From Anaerolineaceae bacterium (lineage in GTDB: Bacteria > Chloroflexota > Anaerolineae > Aggregatilineales > Phototrophicaceae), in assembly GCA_002702065.1 (NCBI GenBank), contig NZXX01000001.1:2356001-2420000 (forward strand): 64,000 nucleotides of DNA. Reading direction: 5' to 3'. Positions 2,546 through 42,470 of the stretch are shown piece by piece. Position 1 is the stretch's first letter. Every line of letters begins with the position of its first letter. A model generated the notes under the pieces. The model was not told the origin of the DNA. It searched no databases and was given only the letters and a program-made list of their open reading frames with translations. The position numbers were made by a program, and so were the translations under genes.

Positions 2546-3593
2546 GAGGAGATGTTCCGTTCATTGGTGACGCGAAGGTATCCCGTGTCGCGCTTTCCGG
2601 GTTCCATGTGGCTTCATTGCCAGCCAGGTTCAGCATTTCTTCCGCTTTATCGACATAATGACAGGCCGCATAATGCCCAGGCCGTACTTGAACCAGCGGT
2701 GGTTCTTCGGATGTGCAGCGTTCGGTTGCAAACGGACAACGAGATGCAAAACGACAACCCGTCGGCGGCGGTGCCAGCTTCGGTGGATGACCGGGTATCG
2801 AGATCAGTCGATGTGGATGGCGTATATCCGGAAAGGCATTCTTCAACCCCATCGTGTAGGGATGCGCGGGCCGTTTCAGGACGTCGCCAATCGGGCCGAA
2901 TTCAGCAAATTTCCCGGCATACATCACCGCCACCAGATCACAGGTTTCGGCAATCACGCCGATGTCGTGCGAGATGTACACCATCGCAAATCCGAACTGC
3001 TTTTGCAGCTCGATAATCTGCTTGAGAATGCGGTCCTGAACAATGACGTCCAGCGCGGTAGTCGGCTCATCCGCAATAATCAGGCGCGGGTTCAACGCCA
3101 GCGCCATCGCTATGACCAGCCGCTGTTTCATGCCGCCGCTGAGCTGATGCGGGTAATCGTTCAGCCGCTGCGGGGCGATCCCGACCAGTTGACACAGACT
3201 TTCGGCGCGTGTTTCAGCTTCCTTCTTCGACATGGGGTCATGTGCCTGTATCGCCTCGACGATCTGATCACGCAGGCGATAGACCGGGTCCAGGCTGTTC
3301 ATGGCACTCTGGGGCACCAGCGCGATGTCTTTCCAGCGCACGGCGTTCAGTGCCTCCGGGCTCAGGTCCAGCAGCTCGGTGCCGTCCCAGCGGATGCTCC
3401 CCCCCGCGATCCGCGCAGGCCGCGGCAGCAGTTTCATCAGCGTCTTGGCAACGGTGGTCTTGCCACAGCCGGACTCCCCCACAATGCCCAGATTCTGCCC
3501 GATGTCCAGTTTGAAACTGACCCCGTCGACAGCCTGCACCGGTGGGGACCCGGCATACGTAACTTTCAGATCATTGACTTCTAATAGCGACAT
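2538..3593 (-). CDS. oligopeptide/dipeptide-type ABC transporter ATP-binding protein (DppD/OppD-like)
   Basis: [52 protein letters not shown]. Confidence 0.93.
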   Translation of the reverse strand: MSLLEVNDLKVTYAGSPPVQAVDGVSFKLDIGQNLGIVGESGCGKTTVAKTLMKLLPRPARIAGGSIRWDGTELLDLSPEALNAVRWKDIALVPQSAMNSLDPVYRLRDQIVEAIQAHDPMSKKEAETRAESLCQLVGIAPQRLNDYPHQLSGGMKQRLVIAMALALNPRLIIADEPTTALDVIVQDRILKQIIELQKQFGFAMVYISHDIGVIAETCDLVAVMYAGKFAEFGPIGDVLKRPAHPYTMGLKNAFPDIRHPHRLISIPGHPPKLAPPPTGCRFASRCPFATERCTSEEPPLVQVRPGHYAACHYVDKAEEMLNLAGNEATWNPESATRDTFASPMNGTSPHG

Positions 3594-3596
3594 CGA

Positions 3597-4460
3597 CTAT
3601 TCCACAAGATTAGGATTGGCGATTGGTTCGAGCGCACGCGTGATAAAGTAGCTGGAAATCACCACCAGGACAATTGACAGGCCCGGCGCCATCATCCACC
3701 ACCACGCCTGCCGCATCGCGCCGCTGGCAAAGGCGGTCTGTAAAATGATGCCCCAGCTCATCGCCTGCGGTGGCCCAAAGCCGAGAAAACTGATGCTGGC
3801 TTCGGCAATAATGGCCCAGCCAATCGTGATAGGCACGTACATTAAGATGACTGGAAAAATATTGGGCGCGATGTGCTGGTAGAGAATGCGGGCGTCGGAC
3901 GCACCGGCGACCCTGGCCGCCTTGACAAATGGTCGCTGCGACAGCGATAGCACCAGTGCCCGGATGACACGCGCAGGCGACCGCCACATAATCAGTGTCA
4001 TGACCAGCACCAGGTTGAACACGCTGGGCCCCAACAGGCCGACAAGCAGAATCGCAAACGGTTCAAACGGAATCGAATAACTGATATCCACCAGCCGCAT
4101 CAGAAAATCGTCGACCCGCCCCCCGAAATAACCGGCAATCAGCCCGACATTGGCGCCGATCAGCGCGACGGAAAGCGCCGACAAAAATCCGACCAGCAGC
4201 GCAACCCGGCTGCCATAAACCACCTGGCTAAAAATATCGCGGGCGAGGTTGTTGGTGCCAAACAGGAAACGGGTCGAGGGCGGTTCGTACTTCAGCGCAA
4301 CATCCGTCTCCGCATCAGTGATAATCTCATCCGGGTCATAAGGGGCGATCTGTGGCGCAAACAGGGCAACGACCGCAAACAACACGATCACGACCAGGCC
4401 AAACAAAGCCATTTTGTCAGCCAGAATTGCGCGAAAGATGAGGTTCATATTGGAAAACAT
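3597..4460 (-). CDS. ABC transporter permease (DppC-like)
   Basis: Binding-protein-dependent permease; FGTNNLARDIFSQVVYGSR and ASISFLGFGPPQAMSWG. Confidence 0.92.
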   Translation of the reverse strand: MFSNMNLIFRAILADKMALFGLVVIVLFAVVALFAPQIAPYDPDEIITDAETDVALKYEPPSTRFLFGTNNLARDIFSQVVYGSRVALLVGFLSALSVALIGANVGLIAGYFGGRVDDFLMRLVDISYSIPFEPFAILLVGLLGPSVFNLVLVMTLIMWRSPARVIRALVLSLSQRPFVKAARVAGASDARILYQHIAPNIFPVILMYVPITIGWAIIAEASISFLGFGPPQAMSWGIILQTAFASGAMRQAWWWMMAPGLSIVLVVISSYFITRALEPIANPNLVE

Positions 4461-33875: not shown

Positions 33876-35114
33876 ATGAAATTGACCACCAATCTGCTCG
33901 AACGCGCGCGCCAGATACCGCCATCGATTGTCATGGTGGTGATCTTTATAACGGGTTTTGCGCTCGGCAGCCAAACGACCGCAACCTTCGCTCATCACCC
34001 GGACCAGCAGTACGCGCAACCGGCGGGGTCAGATGAGTTGTTTGAAGCCTTCTGGCAGGTCTATGACCTGATCGAGGAAGAATTTGTGTCGCCGCACAAC
34101 CAACCCATCGAGCCACAGATACTCGTCGATGGCGCCATTCAGGGCATGGTCGAAGCCCTTGAGGATGAAAACAGCGGTTACATGAACCCCGAACTCTATC
34201 CGGTGCTGTTCGATGACCTGTCCGGCGCAATTGAAGGCATTGGTGTGGTCATCCGCGACAATGAAGAACTGGGCGGCATTGAGGTCGTCAACATTCTGGA
34301 AGGCACGCCGGCGGCGCAGGCCGGAATCCAGATCGGCGATATATTCGCAACGGTCAACGGTGAGGACGCCTTCGACTTCAACCAGATGGAGCTGGCTGCG
34401 CGGGTACGTGGCGCTGCCGGAACAACAGTCGAAATTACCATGCTGCGCAACGGCGAGCGCGTGGAATTCACCCTCACCCGTGCGCGTATCGAAATCCCGA
34501 ATATTGAATCACATGTGATCGAAGATACCCATATCGGCTATATCAAGCTGCACGAGTTCACGTCGGAGGCGCGCACCGAGATCGACGCCGCCATCGACTC
34601 GTTGAATCCGGAAATGCTCGACGGACTGGTGCTGGATTTCCGTGGAAACCCCGGGGGGCTGCTCACCAGCGCCATTGATGTCGCCAGCGCGTTTATCGAA
34701 GAAGGCCCGATACTGGTCGAAGACTTTGGCAGCGACCGGGAGCAAATTTTTCAGGCGAATGGCACCTATCGCGATCTAACCATCCCCCTCGTCATACTCG
34801 TTGACGAACGCAGTGCCAGCGCGTCCGAGCTGGTCGCCGGTGCGCTGCAAGATACCGGCGCTGCGACAATCATCGGCGAAACCACCTTTGGCAAAGGCAC
34901 CGTCCAGAGTGTGCAGAAGCTGGTCAATGGCGGCGGCCTTCGGCTCACAATTGCCCGCTGGCTGACACCCAACCGTCACTGGATACATGGTGCGGGCATT
35001 ACACCAGACATCATCGTCGATTGGGACCCGGAGACCTTTGACGAGATAGAAGACCCGCAGCTGGACAGGGCCATCAGCCATCTTCAGGAGGTGTTATTCA
35101 CACCGATTGAATAG
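33876..35114 (+). CDS. S41-family carboxy-terminal processing peptidase (CtpA-like) with PDZ domain
   Basis: [97 protein letters not shown]. Confidence 0.93.
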
Positions 35115-35181
35115 CTGCGAAATCCATAAATTTGCGTTAGCATCAGGCACCGCATGAACCAGCAACAAGGATGAAACCAGC

Positions 35182-35922
35182 ATGGAAATACTTGGCATTG
35201 ATATTGGCGGCTCAGGGATCAAGGGCGCGCCCGTCGATACGGACAAAGGCGAACTCAGCGCCGACCGCCATCGCATCCCAACGCCCCAGCCATCGACGCC
35301 AGAAGCGGTCGTCAACGTGGTTGCTCAGATTGTCGAACATTTCGAATGGAACGGTCTGATCGGGTGCACCTTCCCCGCCATCATCAAGAACGGCGTCACC
35401 CACAGCGCGGCCAATGTCGACAATGCCTGGATCGGCTTTGAAGCGGAAAAAATGCTGCGCCAGCAAACGGGTTGCTCACTGCTGCTTATCAATGATGCCG
35501 ACGCCGCCGGGATTGCCGAAATGAAGTTTGGCGCAGGCCGCGAAGCCGAGGGCGTCACCATTGTACTGACGCTCGGCACCGGCATTGGCAGTGCCATCTT
35601 TGTTGACGGTGAGTTGCTGCCCAACACCGAACTCGGCCATCTGGAGATCAAAGGCAAGGAAGCCGAAAAATGGACAGCGGACAGCATCCGCAAGAAAAAA
35701 GACCTGGCCTGGAATGAATGGGGCGAGCGGTTGAACACCTACCTCAGCCACCTGGAATTTCTTTTTTCACCAGACCTGATTATCCTGGGCGGCGGGGTCA
35801 GCAAGAAGTTCAACAAGTATGAATCGTATCTTACGACCCACGCCCCCTGTGTGCCGGCCAAGCTGCGCAACGAAGCGGGTATTGTCGGTGCCGCGATGGC
35901 AGCCCAGCGGATGGCGCATTAA
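35182..35922 (+). CDS. ppgK: polyphosphate glucokinase / ROK-family kinase
   Basis: [70 protein letters not shown]. Confidence 0.88.
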
Positions 35923-36581
35923 ACGTCCTGATACAGAATGGCAGAAAATGCCAGTTCGCCCCCGGCGTAGCGGATAATGCGCCCGGCGGCCATATCAATC
36001 GCATTCTGCACCGCGTCAACCGGTGTCACCCCGCAGCCATCAACAAATAGCAGCACGTTGATGGTTGCGTCAGTAATTTTGGTATAGTCCGCGTCGCGGT
36101 GGTTGAAGTCCCAGCAAACCACCCGCGCCTGATCCGCATAAATCAGTTCACCCGCGTCAATCGCCTGCGGCCCATCGCTGCCCATGGTTTCGATGGATTC
36201 GCCTTCATGCGCAAACCGCAGTTCAACCGGGAACTGCAAACAATCGGCATCATAGGCTGCAATCGGGATCAAGGTTTCGACCGACGCCAGATTATAGGCA
36301 TCGACGACATTGTTGATATCCGGCAGGCCCCGCCCCCGCGTGATCCGCCGCAGCAAGGCTTCTGCGCTGGGGTTGCGTTTACCGGGGTCGGCCCCGAATG
36401 CCCGGTAGATTTCCCGGTATGCTTTAACCGCATCCAGCGAACCGAGGTTAATCCCCTGATATTCCTGCATCAATGTTTCGGCGGTCTTGGCTTTGAGCGC
36501 ATTCAACTCTGCGCTGCTGCTGGCAACCTGAACCCCTCGGATCAAGGCGACACCAATACGCAGATCGGAGAACTTCTCCAT
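35919..36581 (-). other. B3/B4 (PheRS-beta editing-like) domain fused to LysRS C-terminus
   Basis: [59 protein letters not shown]...[27 protein letters not shown]. Confidence 0.85.
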
Positions 36582-38246
36582 GACATCATCGTGAATGTGC
36601 AGCGTATTGCCATAGACCGCGTCTGACCGGCGTTCCATCACCCGAAAACGGGCCGACGCCTGATACTGAATATTCTCCACCTGCTGCAACCGGCGCAGCG
36701 CAAACTCATGGTCGAGCGCAGCCAGCAGTTCACCGGCACGCGGCCCACTGGTGCGCCCCAGAAACGCCAGATAAACCACCTGAAACGCCTGCCCCGGCTT
36801 CATCCCCGACTCGGTCGCGATGTCATAGATGGCTTTGTGAATAGCTTCGCCGGATGGTGAATCCTGCCGGCGGAACCAATCCACAAATTCAGAAAGGAAA
36901 GCACGCTGCGGCTCAGACAGATTGCGGGCGACCTGTGGCACTTTATCCTGCACGACGATAACCGCATTCTCCGGCGCGAAGCGCTGCAACCAGACCTGCA
37001 CATAGTTCACGCGCTTGCCGATTTCTTCCAATTCCTGCGGCAGCAGCGGCCCGCCCTTGTGTCCCTCAAAGTGCGCATGAATATCAATACCCGGAATCTG
37101 GGCGACTGTGACCACATGGGTGAAGCGCGGCCTGTACAGGGAGACGATGGGGTCATCTGCCGAGATTTGAGCCAGTTCAAAAATCCGCTTCTGCCAGGCC
37201 TCGTCCGGCTCATTCGTCTCCTGGAAGTAGTTTTCCGCAGCTGTGTCATACTCGTCGAACAACCGGGGCACGGCGTCTTTGTCCAGGTTGAAGTTGATCG
37301 CAGTACGGGGGCGCGTGCGCACCAGCAAATAACGCAGCAGTTCCGCCGGGAGCGCGTCGATCACTTCCTTGGCGGTGAATCCAATCCCCTTGGACGAACT
37401 CATTTTGCCGCCTTCCAGCAGCAGGAATTCATAAGGCATATTCGCCGGGGGTTCGGCCTGGAATACACGCCGCGCCACCGCTTCGGCCACATCGCGTGAG
37501 CCACCCTCAATCGAATGATCCATGCCCGCGCCTTCGACATTGACGCCCAGCACCTGCCAGCGCGCTGCCCACTCCAGTTTCCAGGGGAGTTTACCGTTGC
37601 CGTCAAATGGGCTGACCGCCCCTTCATGGCCGCAGCCCTGCGCATAATCCATCGAGTCCGGCTCGCAGCGATAGTAAACCTTTTCGCCGTCAAACTTGTA
37701 GACGCGCGTCATGGCGATGCGACCGCAGTTTTCGCAGATGGGGTTGAACGGAAACCAGTCGTCGGCGCGTTCAGAATTGCTGACTTCCAGATAAATCTGG
37801 CGAACGGTGGCGGCATGTTCCAGCACCTGACGGATCACATCGTTCATGCGGCCAGAGCGATATAGTTCGCTCATGCGATACGGTGTTGGGAAAATGCCCA
37901 GTGCGTTCTGCGCCGCCATAAATTCATCGTAGAAATATTCGGCGTAGCTGCGCGCGCTGCCATCCGGCGCGGGAATCACACACAGGGGTTTACCCAGATA
38001 GGGCTTATAGAGGTCATAAGAAAGGCTTGGCGGCACCGCGTCCAGGGCATCATAATCGTCGCTGCCATAAAAGAACGTCGCTTCGCGGCCAGCAGCTTTG
38101 GCGGCCCGGTAAATGACGTCATGAATCACCGGCCCTCGCAACGACCCCACATGTGCACTGCCGGAATATGTTTTCGAGTCGTTGAGCACGATGGATTCAT
38201 AGTCAAGCTCAGCGACGAATTGATCTGCCCAGTATGGTACAGCCAT
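35919..38246 (-). CDS. lysS: class I lysyl-tRNA synthetase with C-terminal B3/B4 tRNA-editing-like domain
   Basis: HIGH-type [11 protein letters not shown] and KMSKS-type GGKMSSSKG; class I LysRS body to about [27 protein letters not shown]; then a B3/B4 domain. Confidence 0.9.
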
Positions 38247-38265
38247 GACAACCCCTGTATAACAC

Positions 38266-38301
38266 AAATAAAAAGGCACGGATGTGTGCGCAAGCCGTGC
38301 C
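38266..38301 (-). terminator. intrinsic terminator of the aminotransferase gene
   Basis: Minus strand GGCACGG-CTTGCGCACACAT-CCGTGCC-TTTTTATTTG. Confidence 0.8.
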
Positions 38302-38343
38302 CATTATATTATTCCGTGCGCATACAATCCAGCACGGAATTGA

Positions 38344-39567
38344 TTACATTTTTTCCGGCATGTCCTCTGCCATCAGCACGGCTTCGATGCGTTCCAGCGC
38401 CCAGTCCAGTTCTTCGCGGTTGACGACCAGCGGCGGCGCGAACCGAATGACGTGTTCATGCGATTCTTTGCAAAGGACTCCATTCGCCAGCAGCCGCAAG
38501 CAGAATGGCCGGGCACCGCCCAGTTCCGGCTTCAGTTCCACACCGATGAGCAGCCCTTTACCCCGCACTTCCTTGACGAAGGGGCTTTCAATCGATTGCA
38601 GGCGATGCAGCAGATAGGCGCCCATCTCGGCAGACCGTTCCGCCAGCTGCTCATCTTCTATGACATGCAGGGCTTCGCTGGCAATCGCACACGCCAACGG
38701 GTTTGCCCCAAACGTGCTGCCATGCTCACCCGGTACAAACAACCCCAGCAAATCCGCTTTGGTGGCAATGGCCGATACAGGGAAGATGCCACCGCCCAGG
38801 GCTTTCCCCAGAATCAGAATATCGGGTTCGATCCCATCATGCTGGTAACAGAAGCGCTTCCCCGTGCGTCCCAGCCCAACCTGAATTTCATCCAGCAGCA
38901 GCAGTACTTTGTGGCGGTTACAAATATCACGCACCGCCGCTAGATACCCGTCCGGTGGCACATTAATGCCGCCTTCGCCCTGAATCGGCTCGACCAGGAA
39001 GCCAACTGTATTGGGCGTAATGGCCGCTTCCAGCGCTGCCACATCACCAAATGGCACAAAGCGGAAACCCGGCGTCAGCGGGCCGAAATCGTGCTTGTAC
39101 AATTCTTCGGACGAAAAGCTGATCACGGTCGTGGTTCGCCCATGAAAGTTGCCGTCACAGACGATAATCTCCGCCTGATCGTGCGGCACACCCTTGACCC
39201 GATACCCCCATTTGCGCGCCAGCTTGACCGCTGTTTCGACCGCCTCGGCGCCCGTGTTCATCAGAAGCGCCTTGTCCATGCCACAAAATTCGGACAGTTG
39301 TTGCAGCAGCGGCCCAACCTGATCATTGTGAAAAGCGCGGGCTGTCAACGTCACCCGATCCATCTGCCGTTTGGCAGCCTCAAGCAGACGCGGGTGCCGG
39401 TGACCGTGGCTGACCGCTGAATAGCCACTGAGCATATCGATATAACGCTGGCCTTCAACATCCGTGACCCAGACACCCTCTGCTTCAGCGATGACCACCG
39501 GCAGGGGCTTGTAATGCTGGGCGCCATACTGTTCTGTCTGTGCGATGATCTGCTCCGAAATCGTCAT
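38344..39567 (-). CDS. rocD: ornithine aminotransferase
   Basis: Class III PLP aminotransferase; YIDMLSGYSAVSHGHRHPRLLEAAKRQMDRVTLTARAFHNDQ, LLLLDEIQVGLGRTGKRFCYQHDGIEPDILILGKALGGG. Confidence 0.92.
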   Translation of the reverse strand: MTISEQIIAQTEQYGAQHYKPLPVVIAEAEGVWVTDVEGQRYIDMLSGYSAVSHGHRHPRLLEAAKRQMDRVTLTARAFHNDQVGPLLQQLSEFCGMDKALLMNTGAEAVETAVKLARKWGYRVKGVPHDQAEIIVCDGNFHGRTTTVISFSSEELYKHDFGPLTPGFRFVPFGDVAALEAAITPNTVGFLVEPIQGEGGINVPPDGYLAAVRDICNRHKVLLLLDEIQVGLGRTGKRFCYQHDGIEPDILILGKALGGGIFPVSAIATKADLLGLFVPGEHGSTFGANPLACAIASEALHVIEDEQLAERSAEMGAYLLHRLQSIESPFVKEVRGKGLLIGVELKPELGGARPFCLRLLANGVLCKESHEHVIRFAPPLVVNREELDWALERIEAVLMAEDMPEKM

Positions 39568-39726
39568 ATCGAGGCTCCTTGACCTTCAGGCTAAGTTTTG
39601 GACAATCTGCATAATTTTTTCTATCGAAATTATACAATATTTTGCCTGAAGCTTATATGATGTCCCTCAAGGTTTCATCGCTGATCCTGCACAAAAAAGT
39701 GCCGCTTATTTCATACTGAGGCCACG

Positions 39727-40020
39727 TTAATCTTCTGTCGACACCGTGCGCAAATATTGGTCGATGACAACGCGCAATTTTTCCTCATCCAAACTGTTGA
39801 CAGCCCGCGCCTCCGGGTAAATCATCAGGTTCGGCCCAGCGCCGCACATACTCAGACAATTGGCGATTTCCAGCTTGAGCGGCCCCGGAAACTGATCGCC
39901 GTTGATGTCGAAAACCGCCGTTTCGAGCTGTTGATACAGCCGCTTGGCACGCCGCCCGGCATTGCAGTACTGCCCCATGCACAGGACGACGCGCTTGCGT
40001 TTTGGCGTCTCGCTGGACAT
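39727..40020 (-). CDS. thioredoxin-like [2Fe-2S] ferredoxin-domain protein
   Basis: VVLCMGQYCNAGRRAKRLYQQL...LEIANCLSMCGAGPNLMIYPEA (four-Cys pattern of the NuoE/shethna-like thioredoxin-like ferredoxin). Confidence 0.85.
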   Translation of the reverse strand: MSSETPKRKRVVLCMGQYCNAGRRAKRLYQQLETAVFDINGDQFPGPLKLEIANCLSMCGAGPNLMIYPEARAVNSLDEEKLRVVIDQYLRTVSTED

Positions 40021-41642
40021 CAGAACGCCGCGACCACGCCATCAGCCCGCGGTTCCGTACCACCAAACAGGACGCCGGTATACGGGTCACGCCGGATAAT
40101 CTGCCCTCGTCCGAACGCCTTGCGGCCACGTCCACTCATCGGTCGCACCTGATGCCCCATCTCGGCGAGCCGCGCCATCGTCTGCACCGGAATGCCTTCT
40201 TCCAGCAGCACAGTGCCATCCGGTTTGCCATCTTCGATGTACCAGCGCGGGCGGTTGAGCGCAGCCTGCGGGTTCAGGTCATCATCCACCATCGCGCTCA
40301 TCACCTGAAAATGGCCCTGCGGCTGCATGAAACCACCCATCACACCGAAGCAGCCCCAGAACTCGCCATCGCGCAGCGCCATACCAGGGATAATCGTATG
40401 ATACGGACGTTTGCCCCCTTCGAGCGAATTGGCGTGGCCCGCTTCCAGCACAAAACCAGCACCCCGGTTTTGCAGCCAGACGCCGGTATCTTTTGCCACA
40501 ATGCCCACACCAAAACCCATATACAGGCTCTTGATAAATGAACAGGCATTGCCGTCACCATCGACCACGCACAGATAAATCGTATCCGACCCCTTCGGCA
40601 GTTTGCCGTAGGTCGGTGGCGGCGTCATGGTTTTATCCGCCGCGATCAACCGGGCGCGTTCCTCGGCATACCGCTGGTTGAGCAGATCATCAACCGGCAC
40701 CTGCGACCTGGACATGTCCGCGATATACTGCCGCGCATCGGCCCATGCCAGCCGCATACACTCAATCATCAGGTGAAGGCGCTCCGGTGAATCCCACGCC
40801 AGCGAGCGCAGATCAAACACCGAGGCAATATTCATGGCCTGCAACGCCGCCAGCCCCTGACCATTCGGTGGACATTCGTAAACCGTCACGCCGCGATAAT
40901 TCGTCAGAATCGGTTCGTCCCAGGTTGAGTGATGATTTTTCAGGTCGTCCTGTGTCATCACGCTGCCCTGCTGCTGCAACGATGAAACAATCGCTTCGGC
41001 CACCGGGCCGCTGTAAAAAGCATCCGGCCCACCTTCCGCAATCGCCCGCAGAGTCTTCGCCAGCGATGTTAACTGCACCACCTGCCCCACCTGCGGTGCC
41101 CGTCCATGCGGCAGATATTCTTCGGCGTTGACCGCATTCTTGATAAATGTTTCGCCCGCCTGCCAGCTGGTGCCAAACGACGGTGCTACCGGATACCCCT
41201 CGCTGGCGTAATGAATGGCGTCCACCAGCACATCAGCCAAAGTCATGGTCCCGTGCCGCCGCAGCAAATCATCCCACCCGCGCACCGCCCCCGGCACCGT
41301 CACCGCGTGGGCATGAAACGGGTTCATCTGCGACCAGCCCTGCGCGACCAGATCATCCCGGTTCAGGGCCGCCGGCGCACGCCCGCTTCCGTTCAATGCG
41401 CTGACGCGTTTGGTCTTCGCATCAAAAAACAGGGCGAAACAATCGCCGCCAATGCCACATGCGCCCGGTTCGGTTACGTTCATGACCGCAGACATGGCGA
41501 CCGCCGCATCGGCTGCGTTGCCACCCTGCCGTAATATATTCAACCCTGCCTGCGCGGCCAGTGGATTACTCGCTGCGGCCATCCCTCTGCGAGCCATGAC
41601 CATTGCCCGCCGCGAGTCAAAATCATATGATGTCGGTTGCAT
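40020..41642 (-). CDS. gamma-glutamyltransferase-family protein (Ntn hydrolase), no signal peptide
   Basis: GGNAADAAVAMSAVMNVTEPGACGIGGDCFALFFD; KGSDTIYLCVVDGDGNACSFIKSLY autoprocessing region. Stop/start TGATG coupling with the ferredoxin gene. Confidence 0.9.
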   Translation of the reverse strand: MQPTSYDFDSRRAMVMARRGMAAASNPLAAQAGLNILRQGGNAADAAVAMSAVMNVTEPGACGIGGDCFALFFDAKTKRVSALNGSGRAPAALNRDDLVAQGWSQMNPFHAHAVTVPGAVRGWDDLLRRHGTMTLADVLVDAIHYASEGYPVAPSFGTSWQAGETFIKNAVNAEEYLPHGRAPQVGQVVQLTSLAKTLRAIAEGGPDAFYSGPVAEAIVSSLQQQGSVMTQDDLKNHHSTWDEPILTNYRGVTVYECPPNGQGLAALQAMNIASVFDLRSLAWDSPERLHLMIECMRLAWADARQYIADMSRSQVPVDDLLNQRYAEERARLIAADKTMTPPPTYGKLPKGSDTIYLCVVDGDGNACSFIKSLYMGFGVGIVAKDTGVWLQNRGAGFVLEAGHANSLEGGKRPYHTIIPGMALRDGEFWGCFGVMGGFMQPQGHFQVMSAMVDDDLNPQAALNRPRWYIEDGKPDGTVLLEEGIPVQTMARLAEMGHQVRPMSGRGRKAFGRGQIIRRDPYTGVLFGGTEPRADGVVAAF

Positions 41643-41741
41643 GAGGCATCACTTTCCTGTCGTCGTTGATTAGGCGATGGGAAGATTATAGGGTCAAACC
41701 CAGGGGCTTTCAAAATCCACTGGTATACTTAGGTTGCAATC

Positions 41742-42470
41742 ATGGAGAACAGAACGATGCAGGCGGCAAACCACATCCTGATTATCGAAGATGACCCCGC
41801 CGTTGCCAGCAGCCTGCAAGATGGCCTGCAACGGGATTCATACCGTGTCGCCTGGAAATCCACCGGCTCGGATGGGTTGCACTATGCCCGCCAGCACAAC
41901 CCGCATCTGATCATTCTCGACGTCCGTTTGCCCGATGGCTCTGGCTTCGATTACTGCCGTCAGATGCGCCAGAATGGTATTCGCCAACCGATTATTATGC
42001 TGACCGTGCAGCGCGATGAAATGGACAAAATCCTTGGGCTGGAAATGGGGGCTGATGATTATGTCACCAAGCCCTACAGCCTGCGCGAACTGCGGTCGCG
42101 GGTTCGGGCTCAACTGCGCCGGGCCTATGGCGAACTCTCCAACGCAGACGCCGACCAGTTCTATGTGGGCGATCTCATTATTGACCGGAGTCGCGGCCTG
42201 GTTCAGCGAGATAACCAGCCGATATACCTGACACCAACCGAGTTTCGCCTGCTGGTCTTTCTCGCGCGCCATCGCGGTCAGGCGCTGACCCGCACACAAT
42301 TACTCGACGAGGTGTGGGGCTACGACAGCGATGTTGAAAGCGAACGCATCGTCAACGTGCATATCCGCCGCCTGCGCGAAAAGATCGAGGTTGATCCCGG
42401 CCAGCCTGCCCTTATCCTCACCGTACCCGGTGTCGGCTACCGGTTGGCCGAGCAGGTTACGAGATTGTAA
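41742..42470 (+). CDS. OmpR-family response regulator
   Basis: Receiver IIEDDPAVASSLQDGL, IILDVRLPDGSGFD, ADDYVTKPYSLREL plus winged helix TRTQLLDEVWGYDSDVESERIVNVHIRRLREKIE. Confidence 0.95.
   Translation: MENRTMQAANHILIIEDDPAVASSLQDGLQRDSYRVAWKSTGSDGLHYARQHNPHLIILDVRLPDGSGFDYCRQMRQNGIRQPIIMLTVQRDEMDKILGLEMGADDYVTKPYSLRELRSRVRAQLRRAYGELSNADADQFYVGDLIIDRSRGLVQRDNQPIYLTPTEFRLLVFLARHRGQALTRTQLLDEVWGYDSDVESERIVNVHIRRLREKIEVDPGQPALILTVPGVGYRLAEQVTRL

Follow-up and report, generated by a model that had tools for sequence, protein, structure and literature searches.

A class I lysyl-tRNA synthetase carrying a C-terminal CtdA-like B3/4 domain in the Chloroflexota: a probable tethered editing module for tRNA(Lys)

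Editing modules of the AlaX, ProXp and ThrRS-ed types occur both as stand-alone proteins and fused to aminoacyl-tRNA synthetases, as do domains of the B3/4 family, whose fold is unrelated. Among the B3/4 domains, that of phenylalanyl-tRNA synthetase (PheRS) belongs to the beta subunit of a class II enzyme and is accompanied by further beta-subunit domains, whereas CtdA, reported in 2023, is a stand-alone deacylase of canavanyl-tRNA(Arg) (PMC10018355). In addition, a laboratory construct in which an archaeal PheRS B3/B4 module was placed on a class I synthetase that normally has none serves to clear a mischarged tRNA. For class I lysyl-tRNA synthetase (LysRS), no editing domain is listed in a 2024 account of the synthetases, and B3/4 is not included in its table of domains shared by at least two synthetase families (PMC11580382); LysRS editing has been described as pre-transfer editing by the class II enzyme (PMC7373986). 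Here, we describe a gene encoding a class I LysRS followed by a B3/4 domain, located in a 64,000-nt stretch of DNA (the window) from Anaerolineaceae bacterium (GCA_002702065.1, contig NZXX01000001.1, 2,356,001-2,420,000); coordinates without a locus name are positions in this window.

The fusion gene is a single unbroken open reading frame (ORF) on the minus strand (35919-38246), starting with ATG and encoding 775 aa, and a GTG further upstream, at 38279, is a possible alternative start. The NCBIfam model lysS_arch (TIGR00467) matched the protein over its full length (aa 6-522 onto 3-513 of 515 model positions; E 2e-109, 366.5 bits against a cut-off of 147.6), and aa 4-521 were aligned end to end with residues 6-520 of the 523 in the solved class I LysRS 1IRX. 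In the Pfam scan, tRNA-synt_1f (8-361, E 5.5e-94) and Anticodon_2 (443-522, E 2.7e-9) were followed by B3_4 (610-738, E 1.1e-23, 84 bits, cut-off 29.3); apart from B3_4, all domains scoring above cut-off were those of a class I synthetase, and none of the PheRS-beta domains that accompany B3/4 was among them. Taken together, the protein is confirmed as a complete class I LysRS with a complete C-terminal B3/4 domain, and both an intact synthetase with its HVGS and KMSSS signatures and a genuine fusion had been claimed in an earlier note made from the sequence alone. It shares with the described class I enzymes the complete catalytic and anticodon-binding domains and both signatures, but has about 235 aa more than 1IRX, which is without an editing domain.

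An AlphaFold model of the isolated C-terminal part, built on 43 related domains, was predicted with high confidence (mean predicted local distance difference test, pLDDT, 95.2; predicted template modelling score 0.91), and all 43 members of the domain alignment (A3) match B3_4 (PF03483). The closest solved structures were two CtdA entries, 9f7e (Z 27.1, root-mean-square deviation 2.3 A, 222 residues aligned) and 9mkl (Z 26.6), which have the same fold over the entire length of the domain, and the sequence also matched CtdA (E 3.6e-16). The B3/B4 domain of PheRS-beta, which shares the core fold, the editing-site Asn and the attachment to a synthetase, was a weaker structural match (Z 18.6, 177 residues). 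Because the CtdA entries are far ahead of PheRS-beta, the modelled domain is a full CtdA-type module, more than the B3/B4 core. It is very likely a module of the editing or deacylase type, which supports the earlier designation as an editing-like domain, but the resemblance over the whole length is to CtdA and not to PheRS. Similarly, the domain boundary first proposed (nt 35919-36581, 220 aa) was about right, although the folded module is slightly longer (nt 35922-36626). Unlike CtdA, the domain is part of a LysRS ORF, falls into a separate clade and has the WNWRQ site of CtdA replaced.

The genome containing the window (6.8 Mb, 99.5% complete) harbors one gene matching PF01921 (class I LysRS), which is the fusion gene, and no class II LysRS above cut-off. 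Judging from this gene content, the fusion protein is the sole candidate for lysine charging in the cell, and the idea of a redundant LysRS was rejected on the same grounds. Across 20 genomes, a class II LysRS was found in 0 of the 14 with a class I enzyme and in all six controls, and the two classes occurred together in no genome tested. Within the family to which the window's genome belongs, the two classes swap cleanly between genera (G000 vs G163, G055, G178 and G252).

In a survey of 154 genomes of the order, class I LysRS was present in nine, six of which carry a C-terminal B3/4 domain on it (four from the same family as the window's genome, two from a different one). The fusion is encoded as one ORF in the three other same-family genomes, with full-length identities of 77% (G298, locus L011), 67% (G312, L010) and 65% (G310, L045), and five genomes in all have it as an intact single ORF. 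The copy in G421 (L049, contig C4), which belongs to the second lineage, is frame-shifted within its LysRS portion, reflecting either a sequencing error or decay. Since the differences from G298 at the three codon positions of the domain are 0.23, 0.14 and 0.55, the domain is under purifying selection, with the frame kept in all four same-family genomes. The unfused class I LysRS genes are confined to three genomes of one sister genus (the copy in G324 is split over two contigs), and a convergent polyphosphate glucokinase gene identifies the locus as the same one whether or not a relative has the domain (L110, L115). The idea of split genes in relatives, raised earlier, was rejected: the sister genus has an unfused LysRS at the same locus and only one further B3/4 match per genome, but the separate B3/4 protein of G212 is of a type found in trp operons and is not a split-off Lys-type domain. 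Outside the order, the class I LysRS genes that were extracted showed no B3/4 match; for some rows of the phylum, open frames of more than 650 aa were left unextracted, and further fusions are possible there.

The LysRS cores and the B3/4 domains have different histories. In the LysRS-core tree the two fused groups are far apart, and constraining them to one clade was rejected (approximately unbiased (AU) test, p 1.6e-60), although this tree has long branches and the depth of the separation should not be over-read. In the domain tree, the six Lys-fused domains form one clade (support 96/86; 94/83 in an earlier tree), which falls outside the CtdA clade. These trees indicate that the same B3/4 subfamily is found on two phylogenetically separate class I LysRS (LysRS1) cores, which may reflect two separate joinings to LysRS or the transfer of an already fused domain between LysRS proteins. 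Being present on two separate versions of LysRS, the domain is therefore probably a proofreading part.

We consider it probable that the protein, the only LysRS of the cell, carries a tethered module for the post-transfer editing of tRNA(Lys) to which a lysine look-alike has been attached. In favor of this are the intact synthetase, the full-length domain with the CtdA fold, the purifying selection, the absence of a second LysRS and the occurrence on two cores; in addition, a structural Asn of the PheRS editing site (Asn-beta-250; PMC3275996) is kept as N652. The class I core would charge tRNA(Lys), and the CtdA-like domain would hydrolyse the ester linkage if the tRNA bears a residue that resembles lysine in place of lysine itself, which would make the polypeptide a double-sieve enzyme. 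We infer hydrolysis of an aminoacyl-tRNA, tRNA(Lys) as the tRNA and a basic amino acid near lysine as the substrate. The domain may be reached by the 3' end of the tRNA bound to the same polypeptide, or it may act on a tRNA of another copy or one just released; because it follows the anticodon-binding domain, we rate a trans reaction with a tethered or neighbouring tRNA and a reaction inside a single complex as equally likely. As class I LysRS reportedly needs tRNA for activation (PMC7373986) and does not charge ornithine (PMC8001834), a close lysine analogue is more likely the edited residue, and ornithine is disfavoured. The proposed enzyme resembles the laboratory construct described above, but it is natural, based on LysRS and equipped with a CtdA-like module.

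Several observations weigh against this proposal. The Lys-fused domains are without the W-x-W-R that nearly all other members of the family show at the motif site and have [FL]N[HY]RD[AS]D instead (in the alignments, the CtdA WNWRQ site reads FNHRD in the window's domain); speculatively, the two acidic residues of the Lys-type motif could suit a basic side chain. We know of no established catalytic residues in CtdA. The sister genus manages with a class I LysRS devoid of the domain, and the full-length AlphaFold model (five sequences) reached a pLDDT of only 51, too poor for domain placement. In addition, the domain is attached on the anticodon-binding side, which in GluRS-like enzymes lies farthest from the tRNA 3' end.

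This position next to the anticodon-binding domain would also suit a non-catalytic appendage that binds tRNA or the ribosome, raising tRNA affinity or localising the synthetase. RNA-binding add-on domains are common on synthetases, and the complex of LRRC47 with the human 40S ribosome (8xp3, Z 10.6) also contains a B3/4 fold. Of the PheRS editing-site residues named in PMC3275996, the His and Glu are replaced by A663 and F734, both being present in the PheT of the same genome. Nevertheless, we regard such an appendage as unlikely, given that the domain as a whole is closest to an active deacylase and that N652, D705, N715, R717, D718 and K723 are among the positions invariant in five fused proteins, including one with 31% identity. 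In the site comparison, the Glu corresponds to Glu334 of E. coli.

An alternative hypothesis is that the domain edits another aminoacyl-tRNA, such as an arginine-analogue- or ornithine-related one, and that LysRS is a mere carrier. The closest characterised relative acts on tRNA(Arg) (PMC10018355), and in 4/4 family members the fused gene is preceded by a gene for ornithine--oxo-acid transaminase (L043, L045; its tail in L010), which in the window has the same orientation and ends 97 bases before the fused gene. The unfused gene has no such neighbor, and an ABC permease-like gene takes its place by inspection; a stand-alone relative (L114) adjoins, by inspection, an acetylornithine-aminotransferase-like gene. 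However, the presence of the domain on two distinct LysRS cores favors tRNA(Lys), the fused domains lie outside the CtdA clade, and the lack of ornithine charging noted above speaks against it as well, which makes this hypothesis quite improbable. That the fusion is a passenger domain, an assembly artefact or a decaying, functionless protein is hardly credible: two relatives are metagenome-assembled genomes and the G421 copy is frame-shifted, but the five intact ORFs, the codon-position constraint and the high-confidence fold argue otherwise.

The tethered editing module proposed here gains further weight from other fusions in the phylum, as they show B3/4 repeatedly joined to synthetases. In eleven sampled genomes from several families, B3/4 is fused to the N terminus of tyrosyl-tRNA synthetase (TyrRS), in natural proteins resembling a laboratory iodo-TyrRS-B3/B4 chimera. 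In six of the eleven, the fused enzyme is probably the only TyrRS, because the sole other PF00579 gene is short, of the length of tryptophanyl-tRNA synthetase (TrpRS); the remainder have a third PF00579 gene. The nearest stand-alone relatives of the Lys-fused domains (L030, L034, L163) are also without W-x-W-R, and the next nearest (L160, L161) adjoin non-ribosomal peptide synthetase genes with condensation and adenylation domains, where they possibly serve in self-protection against a non-protein amino acid. We give an even chance to the broader view that B3/4 serves generally as a plug-in editor of aminoacyl-tRNAs, used on two LysRS cores, on TyrRS and, unattached, for tryptophan and peptide-antibiotic amino acids, and that class I LysRS lineages which lost the class II enzyme gained the first cis-editing lysyl-tRNA synthetases.

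Other stand-alone B3/4 genes were observed as well. The window's genome encodes one with a WCWRQ motif in its trp operon (L121:3942-4691; C7:2577516-2578163), and in this genome, G212 and G310 (L121, L124, L125) the gene lies between genes reading as trpC and trpF by inspection, which suggests an editor for tryptophan-related mischarging. At L114, the end of the stand-alone gene (2903-3646) overlaps the open frame of the aminotransferase-like gene by inspection.

The features of the locus are collected in the table below. Amino acid identity is 0.50-0.80 at aa 531-560, compared with 0.68-0.80 in the LysRS part. In G310, the fusion is followed by a saccharopine-dehydrogenase-type gene, of a kind belonging to lysine catabolism. 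Searches for the fusion on plasmids at coverage of at least 80%, for defence systems with PADLOC, for tRNA genes in the window with ARAGORN and for riboswitches in 34000-42000 with Rfam at gathering scores gave no match.

Table. Features of the fusion gene and its neighbors in the window, with the TyrRS fusions at other loci in the last row
Feature	Position	Strand	Basis
Fusion gene, class I LysRS + C-terminal CtdA-like B3/4, 775 aa	35919..38246	-	translation, family scans
Complete class I LysRS core, aa 4-521	36684..38237	-	end-to-end alignment with 1IRX; TIGR00467, 366 bits
HVGS signature (HIGH-type), aa 32-35	38142..38153	-	sequence; position conserved in alignment A1
KMSSS signature, aa 281-285	37392..37406	-	sequence; alignment A1
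Anticodon_2, alpha-helix-cage anticodon-binding domain, aa 443-522	36681..36920	-	Pfam
LysRS-B3/4 junction, poorly conserved, aa 523-540	36627..36680	-	lower conservation
CtdA-like B3/4 domain, aa 541-775 (235 aa)	35922..36626	-	AlphaFold model; structural match to CtdA 9f7e
Pfam B3_4 core, aa 610-738	36033..36419	-	E 1.1e-23
Motif [FL]N[HY]RD[AS]Dx[TS]K[IV]T, aa 714-725	36072..36107	-	alignments; common to all six Lys-fused domains
Ornithine--oxo-acid transaminase gene	38344..39567	-	TIGR01885, 502 bits (cut-off 378)
Polyphosphate glucokinase gene	35182..35922	+	NF045942, 344 bits; convergent, 4-base overlap with fusion gene end
TyrRS with N-terminal B3/4	L103:2426-4432, L104:1290-3566, L105:754-2826, L106:1627-3618; L164, L166-L171		

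LysRS and B3/4 are each of a known kind, and it is their combination that is new. In agreement with the earlier note, which knew of no characterised fusion of this type, the open-access literature yielded no paper describing B3/4 fused to LysRS (subscription papers lay outside the search), although an automatic database record of the architecture likely exists. As a probable proofreading part, the domain is of a sort not previously known from any lysine synthetase. The occurrence in nature of a LysRS equipped with a CtdA-like module would demonstrate that B3/4 moves from one synthetase to another in the manner of the AlaX-type modules. Moreover, because related organisms encode matched enzymes at one locus, some with the domain and others lacking it, a direct test of which lysine look-alikes threaten translation is available.
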